Under the pieces are notes generated by a model. That model was not told the DNA's origin, searched no databases, and saw nothing but the letters and a program-made list of their open reading frames with translations. A stretch of 33,486 nt of DNA from Sedimentisphaerales bacterium (GTDB lineage Bacteria; Planctomycetota; Phycisphaerae; Sedimentisphaerales; UBA12454), in NCBI GenBank assembly GCA_016930635.1, contig JAFGGI010000002.1, forward strand, positions 1 to 33,486, written 5' to 3'. Below are positions 15,959 to 32,879 of the stretch, piece by piece. How positions within the stretch are numbered: the stretch's first letter is position 1; every line of letters starts with the position of its first letter. The translations under genes were made by a program, and so were the position numbers.

Positions 15959-18382
15959 TTAATATATTCCTCTTTGAAGCCAGTAATCCATCAATATCGC
16001 AAGGTCGTTTATATCAACATCGCCGTCAAAATCCAGGTCCGCCCAGTCGCAGTAATAATTATATATCGAACAATCCTCGCGCAGCCAAAACTGTGCAAAT
16101 ACTGAAAAATCTCTAAAATCATTTCTGCCATCCGTATAGATATCCGCAGGCGATATCTGCCAGGTCAGAATTGGATACTCATCTATCTGTATAAACCAGT
16201 CCGCATCATTGCCATCCGTATATGAAAAATCCCAGCCGGCATCTGTGTATGTACTCATCTGTTGCATCTGTACTGTAGGCAAGCCTGTCCCGGCAGCGCT
16301 ACTCGCCTGACCCGAAGTTTCTATGTCCCAAAAAGAATTGGTAGCAGAACCGCTGTAACCAATTAATCCCCCCTCATTATCGCCCCGTTCGATAACTGCT
16401 CCAGTGGAATAACAATTAACAACCACAGAACCTCTACCGGCAAGGCCACCAGAATAACGTCCTCCATCTACATAAGTATGTGAGTAACTGTTAAAAACTA
16501 TCCCTCCAATACCTACTAATCCTCCTACCGTATTATCATAAAGGAATTTACCATCAACACTACCGGTGGAATAGCAATAATTAATAGTTCCAGAGTTCCC
16601 ACCAACTAAACCACCCACATGTGAGTATGTACTATTAGCGGAGGCATTTGCAAACGCATAACTTTTTTCTATTAGTCCACTATTAGAACCGGCAATTCCA
16701 CCAACAGCTCGTCCATGAGTTGATATACTTGAGCTGCAATGGGTAATAGTCCCTCCCTCATTACAAGCTACAATTCCTCCTACAGCACTATCGCCTTCAA
16801 CCAGACCTCCTTCAACATGACAATTATGTATTTCCCCGTCTTTAAGAAGGCCAGCTAAACCTCCGACATGTAGTCCAGCAAAGGAAAGAACAGGTTCTAC
16901 AAGCCACAATGACTTAATCTGAGTATAATCTCCCTTTAAACATCCAAAAAGACCTGCATACCGTTCACTTGAAGGTCCATGGTAAATATTCATTATTTTA
17001 TGGTAGTTGCCATCGAATACTCCCGTAAACTCCAGTAATCCAACACCTATTATATTGTAATTAGCTTTATAATAAGTTGTCGGAAAGTTAATATCAGCCA
17101 TGAGTTTAAAATGCTTATCCCAATCACATACAAATAACCCAATTGTATTAAAATCTTCAGGTGAGTTTACAAGATAAGGTTCGTTAGGGCTTCCATCCCC
17201 TGACATATAATCTGATAACTGTTCATCTATTGGCTGGCCGGGAAGATTTTGCCATGCAAGCCTTGGATAATCATTTCCATCGTTTATTGTCCAGACATTA
17301 TAACAACCCCATCCAATATAAGTACTTTTTGATTTCATTTCCTCGGTAGTCTTCCCTGCCCCCGAATCGTAATACGACCAAATACCACTACTGTTAATAT
17401 CCCAGTAAGAATTGACAACATCGCCATGATTACTTCCAACAAGCCCTCCAGTTGAAATTGCACCTGAAACTGCACCTGTCGAATAACAGTAAATGATTAT
17501 ATTCTCATTGAAACCAACTAACCCACCTACCACTTGATACCCGGTTACAGCCCCAGTTGAGTAACAATTCAAAATCTTAGCTCCGGGGTAGGCATTCTCC
17601 CCAATTAAACCACCTACAGAACGTTGACCAGACACAGAAACATTTGCATAACAACTTTCAATTAAGCCATTAGGTAAAGTAACAAGAGTTGAACTAATAA
17701 GTCCGCCAACTACCCCCCAATCCGTTGCTGAAGCGTATCCTTCAGCTGCGCAGTTCTTAATAGTTACATCATCACCTATCGTACCAATCAATCCCCCTAC
17801 ACCTTCAGCACTTTCAATATCAACTGTTGCACGACAATTGGAAACAGTACCACCAGAATAAACACTGCCTGCCAGTCCGCCAACAAAATTGCCGCCTCGG
17901 ATATGGACGTTATACACACTGCATTCATTAATAGTCGCCCCATACGCCAGAACACGAACAAGAGCACCGATATTACTATTTGCATCCGATTCACTTTTAA
18001 TATAGACATCTGACAGGGTTACATTTCTAATTTCAGTATTAACTCCGCCAACACAACCGAATAATCCGGCTTGAACACTTGACACAGAGCAATTAAAATC
18101 AGAAATGGTGTGACCATTACCATCAAAGATTCCTTCAAAGGGACTCTCCCAGTCAGTACCTATCATATCAAAAGCAGAACCGTTGAAATTTATATCATTT
18201 ACCATTATAAAACTTGCGCCCCAATCTGATGGTGTCGAGCTAAGTTCATTAATGTCTGCAACATTTGCGATTCTATATGGATCATTTGGCTCACCCGTCC
18301 CGCCGGAATAGGCAAAAGCAGATGAAAATAAACATAAAATAATACCACCGATTACCGACAATTTGCGGTATGAATTATCCAT
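15959..18382 (-). CDS. Secreted GLUG-repeat protein with dockerin-like tail
   Basis: The 807-residue product has a signal peptide (cleavage after about residue 24, AFA before YSGG) and two related halves. Each half opens with SGxGxPNxPY and a DINF segment (near residues 26 and 392), continues with GLUG-type repeats (VGGLAG/VGGLIG/GLFG followed by NC, CYS or SYA), and ends with a SYWDI or SFWDI segment. The C-terminus has two Ca-binding-like repeats, TDGRNDFRDFSVFAQFWL and DLDFDGDVDINDLAILMDYW, like a degenerate type I dockerin. The GLUG repeats probably form a beta-helix for surface binding. ATG at 18382 follows GGAGGAAG; a GTG three bases earlier is possible. No catalytic motif is seen. Confidence 0.88.
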   Translation of the reverse strand: MDNSYRKLSVIGGIILCLFSSAFAYSGGTGEPNDPYRIANVADINELSSTPSDWGASFIMVNDINFNGSAFDMIGTDWESPFEGIFDGNGHTISDFNCSVSSVQAGLFGCVGGVNTEIRNVTLSDVYIKSESDANSNIGALVRVLAYGATINECSVYNVHIRGGNFVGGLAGSVYSGGTVSNCRATVDIESAEGVGGLIGTIGDDVTIKNCAAEGYASATDWGVVGGLISSTLVTLPNGLIESCYANVSVSGQRSVGGLIGENAYPGAKILNCYSTGAVTGYQVVGGLVGFNENIIIYCYSTGAVSGAISTGGLVGSNHGDVVNSYWDINSSGIWSYYDSGAGKTTEEMKSKSTYIGWGCYNVWTINDGNDYPRLAWQNLPGQPIDEQLSDYMSGDGSPNEPYLVNSPEDFNTIGLFVCDWDKHFKLMADINFPTTYYKANYNIIGVGLLEFTGVFDGNYHKIMNIYHGPSSERYAGLFGCLKGDYTQIKSLWLVEPVLSFAGLHVGGLAGLLKDGEIHNCHVEGGLVEGDSAVGGIVACNEGGTITHCSSSISTHGRAVGGIAGSNSGLIEKSYAFANASANSTYSHVGGLVGGNSGTINYCYSTGSVDGKFLYDNTVGGLVGIGGIVFNSYSHTYVDGGRYSGGLAGRGSVVVNCYSTGAVIERGDNEGGLIGYSGSATNSFWDIETSGQASSAAGTGLPTVQMQQMSTYTDAGWDFSYTDGNDADWFIQIDEYPILTWQISPADIYTDGRNDFRDFSVFAQFWLREDCSIYNYYCDWADLDFDGDVDINDLAILMDYWLQRGIY

Positions 18383-18385
18383 CAC

Positions 18386-22359: not shown

Positions 22360-25300
22360 TTATGCTACCGCAACGGTTTGGTCTTCCTGTGGTTCGTAAG
22401 AATCGAAAGTTACGCTTATCTTCTTGCTGACGCCTTTTTGCTGCATTGTGATGCCGAACAGCATGTCCGCGATGCTCATTGTCCTCTTGGCGTGCGTGAT
22501 TATGACGAACTGTGAATTTTTCCTGAATTCCTGCAGTATCATATTAAATCGCTCATTATTTGCCTCATCCAGTGCGGCGTCAACCTCGTCGAGGAAACAG
22601 AAAGGTGACGGTTTAGTTTTGAATATCGCAAACAGAAGCGCGATAGCTGTCATTGTTTTTTCTCCGCCGCTGAGCAGGCTTATACTCCTTGTCTCTTTAC
22701 CGGGCGGGCGGGCAATTATTTCTATGCCGCTTTCGAGGATGTCTTCAGGCTGTTCAAGAATGACATCCGCTCTGCCGCCGCCGAACAGCTTTCTGAATAC
22801 CTCCTGGAAATTGCCTCTTATCTGTTCGAAAGTTATAGCGAATTTATCCATCGAATCTTTATTCAGCCGATTTATAAGCTGATTCAGTTGAGCCTTGCTG
22901 TTGTTTAGGTCCTCTACCTGGCTGGTAAGGAATTCATTTCTCTTTTCGAGTTCTTCCTGCTGCTCGATGGCATCGACATTTACGTTGCCGAGCCTTTCTA
23001 TCTTGCCGCGCAGGTCTGCTATTTCTTCTCTTACCGCTTCCCAGTCGGTTTCGGCTTCAGCACTATAGCTTTCGTATTCGCTGACCAGGTCCATCTGCAG
23101 TTCTTCTTCTACTCTGCCGATAAGGTCTGTCAGTTTTACCTCGAGCTGGCCGAGTTCGACTTTCACCTCGCCGATCTGCTCATCAAGCTGGCCTTGTTTG
23201 CTTCTTGCCAGTTTCAAACTCTCTTCGAGTTCGTTGCGCTGCTGGAGCATTTGTGAGACTTCTTCATGGAGAGATACACTCTGATTTCTTGTTGCTTCCT
23301 TCTGTGATAACAGCTCTGTTATTTCCTGCTCGATAGATTTTATTTCATTTTGACTTTGCCCTGATTGTTCATTGCAGGAGGTGATATTATTTTCTGCCGA
23401 GACGAGAGCAGCTTTGCCGTTCTGGATCTGGTTTTCCAGGCTGGTTATCTGCTGCGCAATGGCCTTTTTCTGTTCCTGCGCCTGACCCGATGTAACTTTT
23501 AGTTCTGTAAGCTCACTTGTACTTTCCTCGAGACATTCTTTCTGTTCAGCGAGTTTCTTTTCAAGCTGTTCGATACGCTCTGTTCGCTGGTTATTAACCG
23601 CTTCGAGTTCGGCTAACTGCTGTTTTGAGGTATATTCATTTTGTACAGTCTCTGATATTTGTTTTTCAAGCTGTTCTATCTCGCCGATAAGTAAGGGCTG
23701 TTCATCTGTCAGGCGTTTGATATTCTGTTCGACCGCGTTAAGGTCGGATGCGATATTCGTCTTTTCCGTGTTGGCTTCATATACGCTTGTTCTGAAGTCC
23801 TTGCACAGCTTTTCGAGATGTTCGTTTTTCTTTATATCATCGCTGAGTTTCTCTTCAAGCTGTTTTATCTGTGCCGATACCTCCTGGTTTTGGTCTGCCA
23901 GCTGAGTGAGTCTGCTCTTTCGTGAAATAAGCCCGGCTGATTTTCCTATCGGTCCTGTGCAGATGCTGCCGTCGCTGTTTAGTATTGCCCCGGCCGGTGT
24001 AACAAAGCTATAGCCTTGTGAGCAGAAATGCCCTAATCCCAGGGCCTTTTCAATAGTCTCTACTATGACAGTTTTGCCGAGCAGGTTCCAGGCCAGCGGT
24101 GCGTATTTAGGGTCGAAGCTTACAAACTCTACCGCTCTGCCTAAAACTCCATCAATCTGTGCAAAGTCCTGGCTGTCCGAGAAAGGCTCGGCCCTGTCTG
24201 TACAGATGAATTTAACCCTGCCGGTGGACCGGTTTAGAAGCTCCGTATCGTTTATCAGTGATAAAGTGTCACTGGCGATCACGGCATCTGTCCTGCCTTC
24301 AATGGCAGCTTCAATGGCACAGGCGTATTTTGGTTCTGCCCGAATAACATCAGCAACGATACCTTCGATAAAATCCTTACCCTGGGCCGATGCGAGATTG
24401 AGTATTTCCTTAACAGCCTTGTCGATTCCCTCCTGTTTGTTTTCCATATCGGCTAAGACTTGTGTTTCGCTTTCTATTGCACTTCGGCGTTCTCTTGCCT
24501 TTGCGATATTGTCGTTTATCTGTGCTACATCTTCGTTGATATCCTTTATCTGCTGACGCTTATCATCGAGGCTGGACTGAAGTTCAGCAACGACCTTGTT
24601 GATGTCATCGAGCCTGGCCTGGTTCTGTGCCCTTGTGCCGAGCAGTTGTTCGAGTTGTTCTTTGCTCTGCGAGGCCTTGTCGTTTAGCCGGTCTTTTTGG
24701 CCGCTGAGATTATTGCGATAGACGTTAATGCTTTGAATCTCGTTATGAAGCTGAGCTGTGTGTCTTACAATATCGATAATACCTGACTTTTCATCTTCAA
24801 GTTCACTTTCTATCTCGGCACAAGCCATATTAACGCCATGAATGTACTGGCCGACCTTTTCAAGCTGTTGTGATTTCCGGCTGATTAGCTTTTCAATTGT
24901 CTCAGCATCGGCTTTACATTGCTCGAGCTGGTTTTCGAATTCGGCAAGCTGGGCGGTTAATCTTTCTTTCTGCTGTTTTTCAGTATTGCCGCGTTCTGTA
25001 AGTTCTTCAATTCTTGTATGCAGAAATTCTATTCTCTGCTGCTGCTGCTCGATTTTACTTGTTACCGATACAAGGGCGTTATCACATTGATTGATCTGGT
25101 TTTCTTTTTCGATGATTTCTGTTGCCAGACTGCTTAATTTCGCATCTTTCTGTGATACCTCGGCAGCGACAGAGGCAAACCTCGTCTGAAGGTCGTTTAG
25201 ATTATTATTTTTCCGGTCTGTATCTGTTTTTATCTGGTGATACTGCGCAAGTGAAAAGCTGACGCGCAGTTCTTTGAGCCTTTGATTATACTGAAGATAA

Positions 25301-25938
25301 TTCCGGGCCTTTCCTGCCTGGAGCTTTATACTGCGGAGCTGCTTTTGTACTTCGCCGATGATATCAGCAAGGCGGAGCAGGTTTTGTTCCGTTCTTTCAA
25401 GTTTACGCAGTGCCTCTTTTTTCTGGGCTTTGTATTTGCTTATTCCTGCGGCCTCTTCGAAGATTGCCCGGCGGTCAATTTTTGATGCAGTAAGAAGCTG
25501 GGCGATCTGTCCCTGTTCGATAATTGAATATGCCCTTACCCCGATACCGGTATCCATAAACAGTTCACGGACATCTTTGAGCCTGCAGGCCTTGTTATTG
25601 ATAAGATATTCGCTGTCTCCGCTGCGGTACAGTCGTCGGCTGACAACAAGGTCGTCCTGCTCTAATCCGAGCGATGATGCCTGTGAAAAATGCAGGTTTA
25701 CCTGTGCCATACCCATTGGTTTTCGGGTTGCCGAGCCGCTGAATATCACATCAGCCATCATTCCCGAACGAAGGCTCTTTGTGCTCTGTTCGCCGAGCAC
25801 CCATTTGAGGGCATCGACCACGTTGCTTTTGCCGCAGCCGTTCGGGCCGACGATGGCTGTTACCTGCTGGTTAAAGCTGAAATCAGTTTTGTCTGCAAAA
25901 CTCTTGAATCCGTCCAGAACAATTTTTTCGAGTCTCAA
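22360..25938 (-). CDS. smc: Chromosome partition ATPase SMC
   Basis: SMC condenses and segregates the chromosome with ScpA/ScpB. The 1192-residue product has Walker A GPNGCGKS at 31-38, two very long coiled-coil arms, a hinge at about 500-660, the ABC signature LLSGGEKTM (from 1088) and Walker B FCFLDE (Asp1117, Glu1118) with the D-loop. The start is TTG at 25938, giving MRLEKIVLDGFKSF as in typical SMCs and following GGAG by nine bases; the longer frame from 25983 adds 15 atypical residues. Full length is normal. ScpA and ScpB are not in the window. It converges with the MBL gene. Confidence 0.96.
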   Translation of the reverse strand: MRLEKIVLDGFKSFADKTDFSFNQQVTAIVGPNGCGKSNVVDALKWVLGEQSTKSLRSGMMADVIFSGSATRKPMGMAQVNLHFSQASSLGLEQDDLVVSRRLYRSGDSEYLINNKACRLKDVRELFMDTGIGVRAYSIIEQGQIAQLLTASKIDRRAIFEEAAGISKYKAQKKEALRKLERTEQNLLRLADIIGEVQKQLRSIKLQAGKARNYLQYNQRLKELRVSFSLAQYHQIKTDTDRKNNNLNDLQTRFASVAAEVSQKDAKLSSLATEIIEKENQINQCDNALVSVTSKIEQQQQRIEFLHTRIEELTERGNTEKQQKERLTAQLAEFENQLEQCKADAETIEKLISRKSQQLEKVGQYIHGVNMACAEIESELEDEKSGIIDIVRHTAQLHNEIQSINVYRNNLSGQKDRLNDKASQSKEQLEQLLGTRAQNQARLDDINKVVAELQSSLDDKRQQIKDINEDVAQINDNIAKARERRSAIESETQVLADMENKQEGIDKAVKEILNLASAQGKDFIEGIVADVIRAEPKYACAIEAAIEGRTDAVIASDTLSLINDTELLNRSTGRVKFICTDRAEPFSDSQDFAQIDGVLGRAVEFVSFDPKYAPLAWNLLGKTVIVETIEKALGLGHFCSQGYSFVTPAGAILNSDGSICTGPIGKSAGLISRKSRLTQLADQNQEVSAQIKQLEEKLSDDIKKNEHLEKLCKDFRTSVYEANTEKTNIASDLNAVEQNIKRLTDEQPLLIGEIEQLEKQISETVQNEYTSKQQLAELEAVNNQRTERIEQLEKKLAEQKECLEESTSELTELKVTSGQAQEQKKAIAQQITSLENQIQNGKAALVSAENNITSCNEQSGQSQNEIKSIEQEITELLSQKEATRNQSVSLHEEVSQMLQQRNELEESLKLARSKQGQLDEQIGEVKVELGQLEVKLTDLIGRVEEELQMDLVSEYESYSAEAETDWEAVREEIADLRGKIERLGNVNVDAIEQQEELEKRNEFLTSQVEDLNNSKAQLNQLINRLNKDSMDKFAITFEQIRGNFQEVFRKLFGGGRADVILEQPEDILESGIEIIARPPGKETRSISLLSGGEKTMTAIALLFAIFKTKPSPFCFLDEVDAALDEANNERFNMILQEFRKNSQFVIITHAKRTMSIADMLFGITMQQKGVSKKISVTFDSYEPQEDQTVAVA

Positions 25939-26122
25939 TGGTAAATTCTCCGCCTGATATCCAATAATCAGATAAAAACGCAATAATAATCAAAGAAACG
26001 CTATATATTACATTATCGGTCTTGTGTTTGCTACTTCTTTGATAATTAAATGGGATATTTTAGACAAAATAGCGAAGGCTAATCAGGACTAAAGATATCT
26101 TTTAATGTTCTGTGCTATATCC

Positions 26123-26209: not shown

Positions 26210-29200
26210 ATGTTTAAAAGACATATCTGCGCTGTTTCAATTCTATTTGTTGTAATTTTTGTCAATAGTACTTTTGCTGCGGATCCTAATGTCATAGCTG
26301 AGTTTACCGATCTTGACACCGATAAGGTGCAGAAAATAGTTGGCGGTTATGACGTTAATGAGATGCGTGCGCAACAATTTGATGTTGCTACAGATGCCGC
26401 GATCAATGAGATCGCGCTTTGCATGTATCATTTGCCGGGGACTGTATCAGGTTCTGTAGTAGTTAAGCTTTGTCCCAATGAAAGTACGATAGTATTTGGA
26501 GGATATTCATATCCTAATCTTCCTAACGCGTTGGCACAGAAAACAGTACCTGTTAGTTCGCTTTCTGAGAACAAAAGCTGGGTCTCATTCGAGTTTGCCA
26601 GTCCTGTAAATGTTTCAGCGGGCAAATACTGGATAGTATGGTCCCTTACCTCAGGAGCAAGCGGGGAAGTGTGCAGTTCTATTAAGCTGGGCAATCATGT
26701 AAACGGGATCGATGATACCAGATTATGCACCGGGAGCAGCGAGTGGTGGGCATGGTCGATGACTGGAGCGATGCTTAATCATGATATGAATTTCAGGGTC
26801 CTTGGCGGCCGGGTTCAGGAAACCACATCAACCAGAGTTAGTGCTCCGGCCACAGGGGTTACGTCAACTCGTTACGAAGTAACCGTTGACGTTAATGATT
26901 CAAGTAATGAGCCTCTTATAGGATGGGCGCCTATAACTCTCGAGGCCCCTGACGGCGGAACATTTGATAACAGCAGTCTTACATTAGAATATGGTGACGC
27001 CAATACGGTCTGGAAATCACCGTCAACATCGGGATGGTATGAGATCAAGGCTCAATTCGATGCTTATACTCCCGACGGCAGCGGTGTAGATTATGGCGAC
27101 AGCAATGACAGTGTAATGATATATATATCGCCTCAAAACCGTTGGACATCTACCAGGCAAACTGTGGACAATACCTATATCAGGACAAGAGAGACGATAG
27201 ATGTTAATGTGATAGTAATTGACAGTTGTAATGTAGCAGTTGGGGACGGCGAAGTAACTTTTTGTACCTTGCCCAAGTCGGGAAGCTTTTCGCCTAATCC
27301 TGTCAGTGTGGATAGTCTCGGCCGGGCTGAGACAACATGGTTGGCAGGTGATGGTGTGGGCGATTTTAATATAGTGGCAAGTTATTCCTGTGCTCCTGGT
27401 GCCTCAATTATTTATGGAGGCAGTGACGACTCGGATGTTGTGTCTGTGGACTATATGGATGTAAATACAACCACAACCATAGAAGTGTCGCCTGGTTATC
27501 CTTATGTTGGATTCGAGCCTTACGTGATTATTAAAGTTAGGGACCAATGGGGAAATCTGGTGCCCGGCGGGTCGGTACAATTACCGACAACGATTCCAGC
27601 ATATGGAACGTTCAGGGCCACGAATATAAATCTAATGGGAGGAATGTGCTATACCAAATGGGGAATTCCTTCAAGTCTGCCGATATCAAATCCTGTAACG
27701 GTAAGTGCGATTTACCAGGATGGGTATACTGCCGGCGGGAAAAGATATAAAACCAGTCTTGGCAATACGACGGCAAAGATAATAAAGGACTCAGACAGCG
27801 GCGGCAGCGGCGAACTATCCTGGATGATCGAATGGATTACCAGCTATCCCTGGCCGGAGGACGATTTGAAGAATACAGATGACGATGCAAAAGGTTTTAA
27901 AGATACTCTACAGGGCTATACCGGAAGGGAGTTTTCCAACAGCAATGCATGGGAAGACCATATGAAGGGAAATATCTTCGGCCAGGAAGAAGATTTTATG
28001 GACGTGCATGATGTTACGTATTTTTCAGGTCATGGCGGAAAGGATATTCTGGAGTTTGCCACGTGGCACGATAACTTATATCTTAATCACGATGACTCTT
28101 ATGACGACTGGGGTGATAAAGATGCAGAATGGGCAATGTTCGCAGCGTGTCATACTATGTCACATGCGAGTTACTGGGCAAGCACTATGGACGGACTGCA
28201 CCTTATATGCGGTTTCATAACAGAAATGGGCGACAGCGCAAAACACGGCAGGATATTCGGTAATTTCCTGAGAAAACAGAATGTCTGGGACAGTCCGCAC
28301 AGAATTTCTCAGTCATGGTTTCTGGCGAGCAATCAAAGCCAGTCAGCCGAGAAAAAAATGCGGGTTGTCGGCGAAAATGAGGCGATGTTCGCTGATTATA
28401 TCTGGTCGCATGGATATGTATCAGATGACCCTTCGCCTAATAACAGCCATCATACCGTAACTTATGATGTTAATAAGCCGACCTGGCCGACTGCTAATGC
28501 CGGCTCATATACAACCAATGCGATTGTTGGTGTGCCCTTTCAGCTTAACGGTTCCGGTACAACAGGGCTCAGTTTTGGCAGCGAGGTATTCTTTGTATGG
28601 GATATGGATACCAGCGTAGATACTGACCCTAATGACTGGGACAATGCGTATGGTAATGGAAATGATGACGACGGTGATGCATGGGGAGTCCGTCCGCAAT
28701 GGGTGTTTACAACTGCAAAAAATTATACTATCCGACTTATGGTAATTGATGATGACTGGCATGTAAATTCATCTACTGCCAGTGTTACCGTTGTTGATCC
28801 GCCTATGGGTATGATCAATGATATGGAAAAGAAAAGCACCTCAAGCGGCGGTGTTGTAATAATTGATGCTTATGATGCTAATAATTTGCCGACAGAATGG
28901 TGGATGCAGACTTATAGTATGTCTGATGACAGTAACAACTTCGAAGAGATGATAAATGTTGGCGACTCTGTCCAGATGGATTCTTCCATATTCGGTACCG
29001 ATGAGCTCGGCAATTATACCACCTTTGACGGTGATAATGAGCTGATAGTAAATGCACACAGCGGCGGTGTAATGTATATCAATAAGGCCAAGGCCTTTAT
29101 TGAGCCTAATACATTACCGATGACAATGCCGCCGAACCCGGTTGGTATTGCCAGTGATTTTCTCAGCGGCCACGGCGTTAATCCTATGAATTCAGTCCTT

Positions 29201-30154
29201 TCCAGAGCTATTAATATCTGCGCCGAAGATGCAAATGATGACAGCCGAAAAGTTACCAGCAGGACACCGTTTCAGACGCTCGTTGAATACCAGCGGCAAT
29301 TGGAGTCGATGGGCAGCTATTATCCTGTTGTCGGGCCGGGCGGCAAGATGAGTGTCCTGGTAGATTCAGATGAGTCGGTTGTAATGTATATGAAAAGCTG
29401 CAGAGAGCTTGATATGGCCGGCGAAGTAGAACTGTCATACAGGCCGGACCAGGCTGTTATTGATTTTCATAGTCTGGGCACAGAGGCATTGCTGCCGGAT
29501 TATAGACTGCCCGCCGGCTGTGAGAGAATAAGAATTGATGATGTCAGTATTGGGTATTACGAGAGCGATTTTGTTACTTATCAGGCATCCGTATTGCCGG
29601 TGTATATTTTCGATGTTACCTGTGAAACCGATAAAGGCGCTTTAAGGAGTCAATTGTATATGTCGGCTATCAGGGCTCCGATGGATATAGATATTCAATC
29701 GCCTTTGCCTGATACGCAGGTGAATTACGGCGATCCTGTTACCTTTGCCGGTACGGTATTGTCAGGCGGCAGTGCTCCTTACACTTACCGATGGGAATCT
29801 GATGTTAAGGGCCTGCTGTCAACTGATTACGAATTTACTACATCTTCGCTGCTTGTGAATTATCAAAGCAGTGATGGTATTTGTGAAAACCTGCCTCATA
29901 CTATTTCATTTACGGTAACGGATGATTACGGATTTGAGACTACTGAATATGTAAAGATAACGGTAGAGGGACTATGCTCCGATTTTGACCGCGACGGCGA
30001 TGTAGATTTTGAAGACTTTGCGGAGTTCGCTCTTTCATGGTTAGTAGGGCCGGGGCAGGCAGGGTACAATGAAAAAACAGACTTCGATAAGAACAATGTG
30101 ACCAATGCCTCCGATTTGTACATTTTCACCGACGAATGGCTGTCAGGTCAGTAA
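26210..30154 (+). CDS. Large secreted protein with caspase-like (DUF6345-like) core and dockerin-like tail
   Basis: The 1314-residue product has a signal peptide (cut after about Ala23, STFA before ADPN), an N-terminal beta domain with a jelly-roll look (to about 200), several Ig-like/Big domains (about 205-530), a central segment at about 545-740, a PKD-like domain (about 755-860), a long beta-rich part, another Ig/PKD-like domain near 1160-1250, and two dockerin-like repeats (DFDRDGDVDFEDFAEF... and DFDKNNVTNASDLYIF...). The central segment contains YFSGHGG (His608) and AACHT (Cys647) with D-x-W-GDKDAEW between, a layout like the DUF6345 family and clan CD cysteine peptidases. Protease activity is inferred from this dyad. 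GAGGAGGA six bases upstream fixes ATG 26210. Confidence 0.82.
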   Translation: MFKRHICAVSILFVVIFVNSTFAADPNVIAEFTDLDTDKVQKIVGGYDVNEMRAQQFDVATDAAINEIALCMYHLPGTVSGSVVVKLCPNESTIVFGGYSYPNLPNALAQKTVPVSSLSENKSWVSFEFASPVNVSAGKYWIVWSLTSGASGEVCSSIKLGNHVNGIDDTRLCTGSSEWWAWSMTGAMLNHDMNFRVLGGRVQETTSTRVSAPATGVTSTRYEVTVDVNDSSNEPLIGWAPITLEAPDGGTFDNSSLTLEYGDANTVWKSPSTSGWYEIKAQFDAYTPDGSGVDYGDSNDSVMIYISPQNRWTSTRQTVDNTYIRTRETIDVNVIVIDSCNVAVGDGEVTFCTLPKSGSFSPNPVSVDSLGRAETTWLAGDGVGDFNIVASYSCAPGASIIYGGSDDSDVVSVDYMDVNTTTTIEVSPGYPYVGFEPYVIIKVRDQWGNLVPGGSVQLPTTIPAYGTFRATNINLMGGMCYTKWGIPSSLPISNPVTVSAIYQDGYTAGGKRYKTSLGNTTAKIIKDSDSGGSGELSWMIEWITSYPWPEDDLKNTDDDAKGFKDTLQGYTGREFSNSNAWEDHMKGNIFGQEEDFMDVHDVTYFSGHGGKDILEFATWHDNLYLNHDDSYDDWGDKDAEWAMFAACHTMSHASYWASTMDGLHLICGFITEMGDSAKHGRIFGNFLRKQNVWDSPHRISQSWFLASNQSQSAEKKMRVVGENEAMFADYIWSHGYVSDDPSPNNSHHTVTYDVNKPTWPTANAGSYTTNAIVGVPFQLNGSGTTGLSFGSEVFFVWDMDTSVDTDPNDWDNAYGNGNDDDGDAWGVRPQWVFTTAKNYTIRLMVIDDDWHVNSSTASVTVVDPPMGMINDMEKKSTSSGGVVIIDAYDANNLPTEWWMQTYSMSDDSNNFEEMINVGDSVQMDSSIFGTDELGNYTTFDGDNELIVNAHSGGVMYINKAKAFIEPNTLPMTMPPNPVGIASDFLSGHGVNPMNSVLSRAINICAEDANDDSRKVTSRTPFQTLVEYQRQLESMGSYYPVVGPGGKMSVLVDSDESVVMYMKSCRELDMAGEVELSYRPDQAVIDFHSLGTEALLPDYRLPAGCERIRIDDVSIGYYESDFVTYQASVLPVYIFDVTCETDKGALRSQLYMSAIRAPMDIDIQSPLPDTQVNYGDPVTFAGTVLSGGSAPYTYRWESDVKGLLSTDYEFTTSSLLVNYQSSDGICENLPHTISFTVTDDYGFETTEYVKITVEGLCSDFDRDGDVDFEDFAEFALSWLVGPGQAGYNEKTDFDKNNVTNASDLYIFTDEWLSGQ

Positions 30155-30163
30155 AAATTTGAC

Positions 30164-31783
30164 TTATTGAGCCTGGGGTGATAAAGGGCCGGGGACAAAG
30201 TCGGCTTTTACTGCGCCTTTGTCACACATTTTTTTGACCAGTTCAGCTATTTGAGAATAAGGTATGCCCAGGCCTGCCCGCTTTTTTTCGTCTTTCGGAG
30301 CGGGGTCATCGCCCAGAGTTCTGATCAAATCGGTCAGTCTGAAACTGGTTTTCAACGGACCTACCAGTTCCCCGGTTATCGGGTGTTTGCACATTGCCGA
30401 GATACGTTTTTCGTCCGGCAGGGCGTTGATTATGATATGGCCGTTGTCTGATTCGATAAAGATATCTTCCTGGCAGATTATCGGCGCACCAAATAATACA
30501 ATTCTTGGCTCATCCTTTCTTGAGACGAATATGGCTTTAGGAGAGATATGAATTATCTGGTCTATATAGAAATCCTGTGCTACGGCAGTTCTTATAATTG
30601 ACGGGTCGTTGTACCTTTGCAAATATTCATAGGCGGCATATCTTACGTCAAAATCATCGTCACGTACGATCCTGTTCATCAGTGCGATTATATCCTGTTT
30701 TTTTCCTCTGCTCGCAAGGGTTTTAATGGCATCTATTCGCACTATAGAAGTTGTGTCCTGGGCAAATTCTCTCAGTGATTTTAATGCTCTGAGGTCGCCG
30801 ATGTTAAAAAGGCATTTTGCGGCATAAAATCTTGTCATAATATCAGAACTTTCAAGCAGAGGCAGAAGTTTGATGATTACCGGTTTACCGATAGCTTCGA
30901 GGCCGGTCTCATATTTTTCTTTTGCCGGATCGTTTTTCAGTTTTTCGATGAGTTCATTTATCTGCCTTTCCTCGGAAACAGCGCTTGAGGTTATGTAAAG
31001 CGACCTTATCAGCTCGATAAACCTTTCTTTTCTGTCCTTAAATTCGTGTGGGAGGGACAGGTAAAGGATACCTTCTGAAACAGCATTGGTGGTATCCCTG
31101 CCGAAACGCTCGTTTATTCGGTTACGTATGATTGCGGCAAGGCGATAGTTCGGTTTGAAAAGTGCGAGCGTAAGCTGATGATTTTCAATGACTTTACCTC
31201 CGCCCAGAATAAGTCCTTTGCGAAGGTCGGGGTTATCCTGGCTGATAGTATCAATGTAAACAGCGCCGGCGGCAACGGCGAGAATCTTGGAAGTACCGGC
31301 AATTATCTGGCTCTGTGTGGTGAACTTTAAATCAGTAGTATAAAGCCTGCCTCCTTTGAGAGAAGTTGTTTGTGTATTTGGCAGAGCTGTAACGGTAATG
31401 TCAAAAGATTCGTCGGCTGCTGCACCAGGCGGTATCGAACCTTCGACGAGAACAATAGCGGTATCTCTGCTGTTTATCATCATATCCGGATTTACCGATA
31501 CTCTCTTGCCGAGTTGAGCTATAATATATTGCCTCAGATAATCTCTGACCATAGGCGGGCATTCGGAAGAGCCGGTATTGTTGAGGCCTACAACAATGCC
31601 TATACCTTTGACAGGAATAGGACTAAAGGCCACCAGGTCGGCAAGCTGGCCGATAGTATTATCAATCTGAGCAGGCGAGTCAGATTCGAGGGATTTGTCG
31701 GTATTTTTCTGCTGTTCATCACAGCCGACGACGAAGAGCATTAAAACCGCCACTGTTAAAATTTCATAAATCCGTGTTTTCAT
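30164..31783 (-). CDS. Lipoprotein with FlgI (P-ring)-like domain fused to HEAT repeats
   Basis: The 539-residue protein has a lipoprotein signal (lipobox VVGC, Cys21). Residues about 42-250 match the flagellar P-ring protein FlgI: VKGIGIVVGLNNTGSS (58-73), an IPPGAAADESFDITVTAL segment, and SLKGGRLYTTDLK (141-153). A helical solenoid of HEAT repeats follows (about 285-400), then a C-terminal domain (about 405-530). FlgI normally forms the ring around the flagellar rod, but no flagellar gene is present and FlgI is not usually a lipoprotein. It may build an envelope ring in another system; this is inference. It converges with the large secreted protein gene 9 bp away. ATG 31783 has AAGGTGA upstream. 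Confidence 0.85.
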   Translation of the reverse strand: MKTRIYEILTVAVLMLFVVGCDEQQKNTDKSLESDSPAQIDNTIGQLADLVAFSPIPVKGIGIVVGLNNTGSSECPPMVRDYLRQYIIAQLGKRVSVNPDMMINSRDTAIVLVEGSIPPGAAADESFDITVTALPNTQTTSLKGGRLYTTDLKFTTQSQIIAGTSKILAVAAGAVYIDTISQDNPDLRKGLILGGGKVIENHQLTLALFKPNYRLAAIIRNRINERFGRDTTNAVSEGILYLSLPHEFKDRKERFIELIRSLYITSSAVSEERQINELIEKLKNDPAKEKYETGLEAIGKPVIIKLLPLLESSDIMTRFYAAKCLFNIGDLRALKSLREFAQDTTSIVRIDAIKTLASRGKKQDIIALMNRIVRDDDFDVRYAAYEYLQRYNDPSIIRTAVAQDFYIDQIIHISPKAIFVSRKDEPRIVLFGAPIICQEDIFIESDNGHIIINALPDEKRISAMCKHPITGELVGPLKTSFRLTDLIRTLGDDPAPKDEKKRAGLGIPYSQIAELVKKMCDKGAVKADFVPGPLSPQAQ

Positions 31784-31916: not shown

Positions 31917-32879
31917 TTAGAGGAAATTTTTGATAATTCCAGCCGAATGTATAGCTACCACCATTAAATAGTCCAAATCGCTGAGGCTATAGTGTTTATG
32001 TACCATGGCATTATCTACATATAACACACCGAAACAGCCTTTTGTGGTTTTGATGCTCGCTATCATGGCAGAGCGTATCCTCTCTTTTGCTTCGATTTCT
32101 GCTGAGACTTGTGGAAGGACCAGCGACTGGCCTCTTTGGAAAGTCTGTGTAATTCTCTCATTCAGCATTATGTCATTTAGTTCCACAGGTTGTCCATCGC
32201 GTCTTTTGCCGAACTGGAAGGTTATTGGTCCGGTTTTTTGGCTTCTCAGGCCGCACCATACCCGAAAAGCAGTAAACTGCTGGATAGATGTATCGATTAT
32301 AGTTTTCACCAGTTCGTCAAGGTCTTTGGCCTTGCCGAAGGACTCAACAGCCTGGGCAAAATCTGTTAGTCTTCTTGCGGCTAATCTCATTGCTGGGGCA
32401 TGCTCACGGTCCGGCTTTCTTACAACTACTTCGTCACGAGGTGTTGACAGAGTTGCTGCTTCTGCTACTCCTACTCCTGAGGTTTCGTCTTCTTCTTCGT
32501 CTTCTTCTTCCTCAAGTGCAGGCTGATCTAAAGGAACCGTTTCTGCGCCGGCAGCATCAAACTTGTCATCTATCTCGTCTTCGCCAAGCAACTCGATCTC
32601 TATAGTAAAATCAGCTATCTGTACTACATCGCCGCTTTTGATCTTGGCTTTATGTATGGCCTCACAGTTCAGATATGTCTTATTGGCTGAATCCAGATCT
32701 TCAATGGTCCACTTGCCGCTCTTGAGGTCTATCATCGCGTGCTGACGGGATATAGCCATATCGGGCAGAACGACATCAACATCCGGCTTTCTGCCGATAT
32801 AAATAGGGGTAGTATCGAGTGTAAGCTCATTTACAGCTTTGTAGTTACGTTTCACCGTCAGATGTATCGATTTTGGCAT
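31917..32879 (-). CDS. FHA-GAF signalling protein
   Basis: The 320-residue cytosolic protein has an N-terminal FHA domain (about 22-98), which binds phosphothreonine peptides: IGRKPDVDVVLPD with Gly29-Arg30, SRQH (44-47), and DLDSANKTYLN in place of the usual DLGSTNGTYVN. A very acidic linker (about 120-133) leads to a helical stretch and a GAF domain (about 180-318) ending in GVLYVDNAMVHKHYSLSDLDYLMVVA. FHA-GAF architectures are usual in signalling modules tied to Ser/Thr kinases or guanylate/adenylate cyclases; no output domain is present here. ATG at 32879. The ligand of the GAF domain is unknown. Confidence 0.9.
   Translation of the reverse strand: MPKSIHLTVKRNYKAVNELTLDTTPIYIGRKPDVDVVLPDMAISRQHAMIDLKSGKWTIEDLDSANKTYLNCEAIHKAKIKSGDVVQIADFTIEIELLGEDEIDDKFDAAGAETVPLDQPALEEEEDEEEDETSGVGVAEAATLSTPRDEVVVRKPDREHAPAMRLAARRLTDFAQAVESFGKAKDLDELVKTIIDTSIQQFTAFRVWCGLRSQKTGPITFQFGKRRDGQPVELNDIMLNERITQTFQRGQSLVLPQVSAEIEAKERIRSAMIASIKTTKGCFGVLYVDNAMVHKHYSLSDLDYLMVVAIHSAGIIKNFL

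Follow-up and report, generated by a model that had tools for sequence, protein, structure and literature searches.

The flagellar P-ring is a 26-mer ring around the rod, and a gene for a protein resembling its subunit, FlgI, that lies away from flagellar genes raises the question of what such a protein does there. One such gene, for a protein of 539 residues that also contains HEAT repeats, is found in the window, by which we mean the whole stretch of 33,486 nucleotides of Sedimentisphaerales DNA analysed here. A sequence-only reading had suggested that the P-ring fold has been reused in this lineage for another envelope ring or for a secretion channel. We refer to the protein as FlgI-HEAT.

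Domain structure and predicted export of FlgI-HEAT

The gene and the parts of its product are as follows.

30164..31783, (-) strand: FlgI-HEAT gene, 539 residues (open reading frame; FlgI and HEAT_2 matches; AlphaFold model with pLDDT 90.6)
31721..31783, (-) strand: signal peptide and lipobox, residues 1–21 (VVG-C21; from sequence)
30986..31660, (-) strand: FlgI N-terminal part, residues 42–266, corresponding to the IRU and OR domains (model alignment; profile E 7e-34)
30602..30985, (-) strand: inserted HEAT solenoid, residues ~267–394 (HEAT_2; HEAT structures matched; no FlgI match)
30185..30601, (-) strand: FlgI C-terminal part, residues ~395–533, corresponding to the IRL domain (profile E 8e-6; structure ranks)

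Comparison with Pfam revealed a match to FlgI (PF02119) at residues 45–268, with E = 1.4e-23 and a score of 83.8 bits, where the cut-off is 25.3 bits, and a match to HEAT_2 with E = 1.1e-18 and 67.7 bits, the best stretch of which spans residues 305–388. Among solved structures, the Salmonella P-ring is matched by the protein itself at 4e-8 (phmmer) and, in the PDB, by a 24-member FlgI-HEAT family profile at 8.8e-27. An AlphaFold2 model computed from 56 sequences has a pLDDT of 90.6 and a pTM of 0.85. In this model, residues 42–266 align to residues 20–246 of the FlgI chain with Z = 16.3 and an rmsd of 8.4 over 206 residues. The FlgI-like segments and HEAT solenoid of the sequence-only reading, which had singled out residues 40–260 for comparison with FlgI structures, are thereby borne out in sequence and structure.

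The same reading had described an extra C-terminal domain; this is instead homologous to the C-terminal third of FlgI. Aligned as a region alone with a profile of flagellar FlgI (20 proteins of the same phylum), the last domain matches the FlgI C-terminus with E = 8e-6, the value for a reversed control being 0.2. The HEAT stretch (~267–394) gives no match to FlgI in the profile alignment. A separate model of residues 394–539 has a pLDDT of 91.3, and FlgI chains, covered from residue 247 to 365, rank 1, 5 and 8 of 992 in the comparison of this model with known structures. The structural match is modest (Z of 5.3–5.9 over 76–86 residues) and was not listed by Foldseek alone, so that the assignment depends on the combination of sequence, collinearity and structure. 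Since the N-terminal part ends at FlgI residue 246 and the C-terminal part begins at residue 247, the HEAT solenoid is inserted within a complete FlgI. The architecture is FlgI-N, HEAT insertion, FlgI-C, with the insertion near FlgI residue 246/247. This point is near the boundary of the OR and IRL domains as defined in PMC8298488, where the OR domain runs to mature residue 230; the conversion to mature numbering assumes a signal peptide of 19 residues. The solenoid is the same as that of HEAT_2 proteins (PF13646) and the designed alphaRep proteins, but in FlgI-HEAT it is an insertion inside another fold. We conclude from these computations, in which profile and fold match along the length of FlgI, that FlgI-HEAT is a real, unusual member of the PF02119 superfamily.

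At its N-terminus, the protein has the signal peptide ending in a lipobox cysteine that defines bacterial lipoproteins (VVGC, Cys21), as the sequence-only reading had recognised. Most homologues carry a lipobox-like motif, but in several close relatives the signal peptide has no canonical lipobox. Because of this N-terminal signal, usually with a lipobox, FlgI-HEAT is predicted to be exported and usually lipid-anchored.

Distribution and separation from flagellar FlgI

Profile searches covered the phylum Planctomycetota. The long FlgI-HEAT form is present in 8/8 genomes of the window's own order, its own included, and in all 14 of the other genomes drawn from the same class. Across the class, FlgI-HEAT was found in 137 of 140 genomes, and in 117 of the 118 good ones, making it as widespread as SMC. 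In a survey of 294 genomes of the phylum, with the long form taken as E below 1e-80, it also occurs in families f31, f72, f81 and f52, and contig-end fragments in f38 fit it too. In f49, where most genomes are 99–100% complete, an ordinary FlgI of ~380 residues is the only form. Long-frame FlgI matches in other families (L164–L169) were rejected as ordinary FlgI because the flagellar profile scores them far higher. Wherever titles carry a name, the named relatives are Planctomycetota, many of them labelled Phycisphaerae, Phycisphaerales or Sedimentisphaerales. FlgI-HEAT most likely belongs to the core envelope proteins of its clade.

In a tree of the FlgI part, FlgI-HEAT and flagellar FlgI are fully apart, with support of 100/99. 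The two proteins (FlgI: PDB 7bgl, 8z5n) share export and one fold over the whole length, with N- and C-terminal parts in order; FlgI-HEAT differs in its HEAT insertion, in usually being a lipoprotein, in its separate clade and in its genomic setting. No flagellar gene was found among the window genes examined, in keeping with the sequence-only reading, and none of the FlgI-HEAT genes studied here was seen in a flagellar cluster. FlgH, FlhA and a second FlgI are all missing from the window genome; as that genome keeps only FlgI-HEAT, this protein is not a flagellar part. No FlgH match was found in three other genomes, G127, G220 and G055 (the last 84% complete), in which FlgI-HEAT is the sole FlgI shown. 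Many flagellated carriers own a second, ordinary FlgI, situated ~100 bp from FlgH wherever the two were compared. FlgI-HEAT is therefore neither linked to flagellar genes nor confined to genomes with a flagellum.

The position of Lys95, a residue facing the rod in Salmonella (PMC8298488), has no lysine in any of the 24 phylum-wide FlgI-HEAT rows, whereas it is lysine in 11 of 20 flagellar copies. This is only suggestive as a sign against a rod-ring role, and the other rod-facing lysine, Lys63, is variable in both sets and little informative. Overall, FlgI-HEAT is best explained as an ancient paralogue of the P-ring protein with no part in the flagellum. The reuse of the P-ring fold outside the flagellum is thus supported, given the separate clade, the retention without FlgH and the lack of a flagellar cluster; an envelope ring or secretion channel, as then worded, is not. 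A FlgI match alone is no proof of a flagellum in a planctomycete.

Linkage to the SMC gene

The sequence-only reading had asked whether the genomes of homologues lack flagella and which genes co-occur; some genomes without flagellar genes keep FlgI-HEAT, and the co-occurring neighbour is the gene for SMC. Two genes of the window are needed here.

22360..25983, (-) strand: SMC gene, 1207 residues, sole SMC gene of this genome and conserved neighbour downstream of FlgI-HEAT (SMC_N and SMC_hinge)
26210..30154, (+) strand: gene for a 1314-residue protein between FlgI-HEAT and SMC, outside the conserved unit (DUF6345)

SMC is the next same-strand gene downstream of FlgI-HEAT in 31 of 36 anchored loci from several lineages; in the window and in L044, one opposite-strand gene lies between them. 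Within ~9 kb, FlgI-HEAT and SMC are each present in 36 loci, and any other gene family in at most 5 of 39. The loci of named relatives were gathered by profile search with order-level alignment. Of these 70 named loci, 64 have room for the neighbour, and the start of SMC lies no more than 300 bp from FlgI-HEAT in 56 of them. The median distance between the two genes is 51 bp, and none of 55 gaps contains a terminator-like hairpin. The pair is also present in f38 genomes. Class-wide, the two genes are close together in 79 of 136 genomes. No adjacency was found in f96, f97, f105 and f107, nor in two of the three genomes of the window's own family, f1; some of the split cases scored as 'other contig' may be assembly breaks. 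We conclude that the head-to-tail linkage is ancestral and long retained, and not obligatory. Its loss in whole families and in the window's own means that co-transcription of FlgI-HEAT and SMC is not required.

Where SMC has moved away, no other partner recurs, and alternative partners were rejected on that ground; the FHA-GAF gene upstream was likewise rejected, having no homologue in the named loci. The 1314-residue DUF6345 protein also has no homologue there. SMC is single-copy in 30/30 genomes, and ScpA is present in all 30 at a locus apart from the pair. As in SMC–ScpAB systems, the linked gene is the genome's only SMC with ScpA elsewhere, but the linked partner here is a predicted exported envelope protein. 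We know of no exported envelope protein described as an SMC partner. As an exported protein, FlgI-HEAT would share no compartment with the cytoplasmic SMC, so that a functional link between the two could only be indirect.

Proposed role and alternatives

FlgI-HEAT is most likely an exported, usually lipid-anchored envelope scaffold that was ancestrally co-expressed with SMC. As to its function, we tentatively favour the view that this non-flagellar FlgI paralogue works as a periplasmic scaffold and would be expressed with SMC for a shared cell-cycle step. Such a scaffold would be wall-associated and perhaps a P-ring-like oligomer, fixed in the envelope through its FlgI core and offering the HEAT solenoid as a docking surface. 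Expression with SMC would reflect the action of both in chromosome segregation or division, and contact with SMC would be made indirectly, via a membrane partner. The structural biology of FlgI (PMC8298488), the SMC linkage and the reported absence of FtsZ from the phylum (PMC12283558) are what point to possible wall binding, to a possible ring and to a possible part in segregation or division.

A serious rival, which we regard as quite possible if rather doubtful, is that FlgI-HEAT is an envelope structural protein whose smc linkage is purely regulatory, through a shared promoter or growth-rate control, the two having no process in common. The linkage has been lost repeatedly while the FlgI-HEAT gene stays, and export rules out a direct role with SMC, both as this explanation would have it; however, adjacency has outlived all other local gene order in several lineages, beyond expectation if it were easily dispensable.

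It is unlikely, though worth stating, that the scaffold serves segregation or division in FtsZ-less planctomycetes as a repurposed P-ring subunit that marks or builds the division or budding site, coupled to SMC via a membrane partner. FtsZ is absent from Planctomycetota, and how these bacteria divide is poorly understood (PMC12283558). This open question gives a near-universal exported protein beside the sole SMC its interest as a concrete candidate, and the SMC linkage makes FlgI-HEAT worth experiment. A keyword search found no literature on a P-ring protein with HEAT repeats in planctomycetes, and the main text of a paper on essential genes of P. limnophila (PMC10632474) mentions neither FlgI nor SMC.

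It is improbable that FlgI-HEAT builds a periplasmic ring for some secretion or pilus machine not yet recognised. In favour are the similarity of the OR domain of FlgI to secretin N3 domains and a published comparison of the LP ring with a secretion pore (PMC8298488); against it, no gene for secretion, a pilus or an outer-membrane channel is found repeatedly near FlgI-HEAT in the loci examined. The secretion channel of the sequence-only reading is accordingly not upheld, SMC being the only conserved neighbour. A role as an accessory of the flagellar basal body, which FlgI homology and the flagellar genes of many carriers might suggest, is very improbable given the separate clade and the lack of a surrounding flagellar cluster, and is already contradicted by genomes that retain FlgI-HEAT where FlgH, FlhA and flagellar FlgI are missing. 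Least credible is that FlgI-HEAT acts in the cytoplasm as a HEAT subunit of the SMC complex, like the eukaryotic HAWK proteins: HEAT repeats and smc linkage recall these, but the resemblance is weak because HEAT solenoids are common, the signal peptide, usually with a lipobox, predicts a location outside the cytoplasm, and ScpA is encoded elsewhere in 30/30 genomes.

Several further observations were made. Tubulin-like matches in 34 genomes of the phylum numbered two, both weak. They are divergent tubulin/FtsZ-family proteins, one in the genome of the window and one in G157, with none in the 32 other genomes (Pfam Tubulin E = 3.8e-12 and 7.8e-9 for the pair, with a weak TubZ-like C-terminal match).

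G000:C14:16530-17057 (L173:4207-5571), + strand: tubulin/FtsZ-family protein (Pfam Tubulin)
L174:3841-5184, - strand: tubulin/FtsZ-family protein (Pfam Tubulin)

Within the window, the 1314-residue protein (26210-30154) has PKD- and Big_1-like stretches beside its DUF6345 domain; in L070 and L073, other genes also lie between FlgI-HEAT and SMC. The FHA-GAF protein (31917-32879) adjoins FlgI-HEAT upstream on the same strand, and a protein of 808 residues (15959-18385) has five GLUG-motif matches, with E = 9.4e-27.
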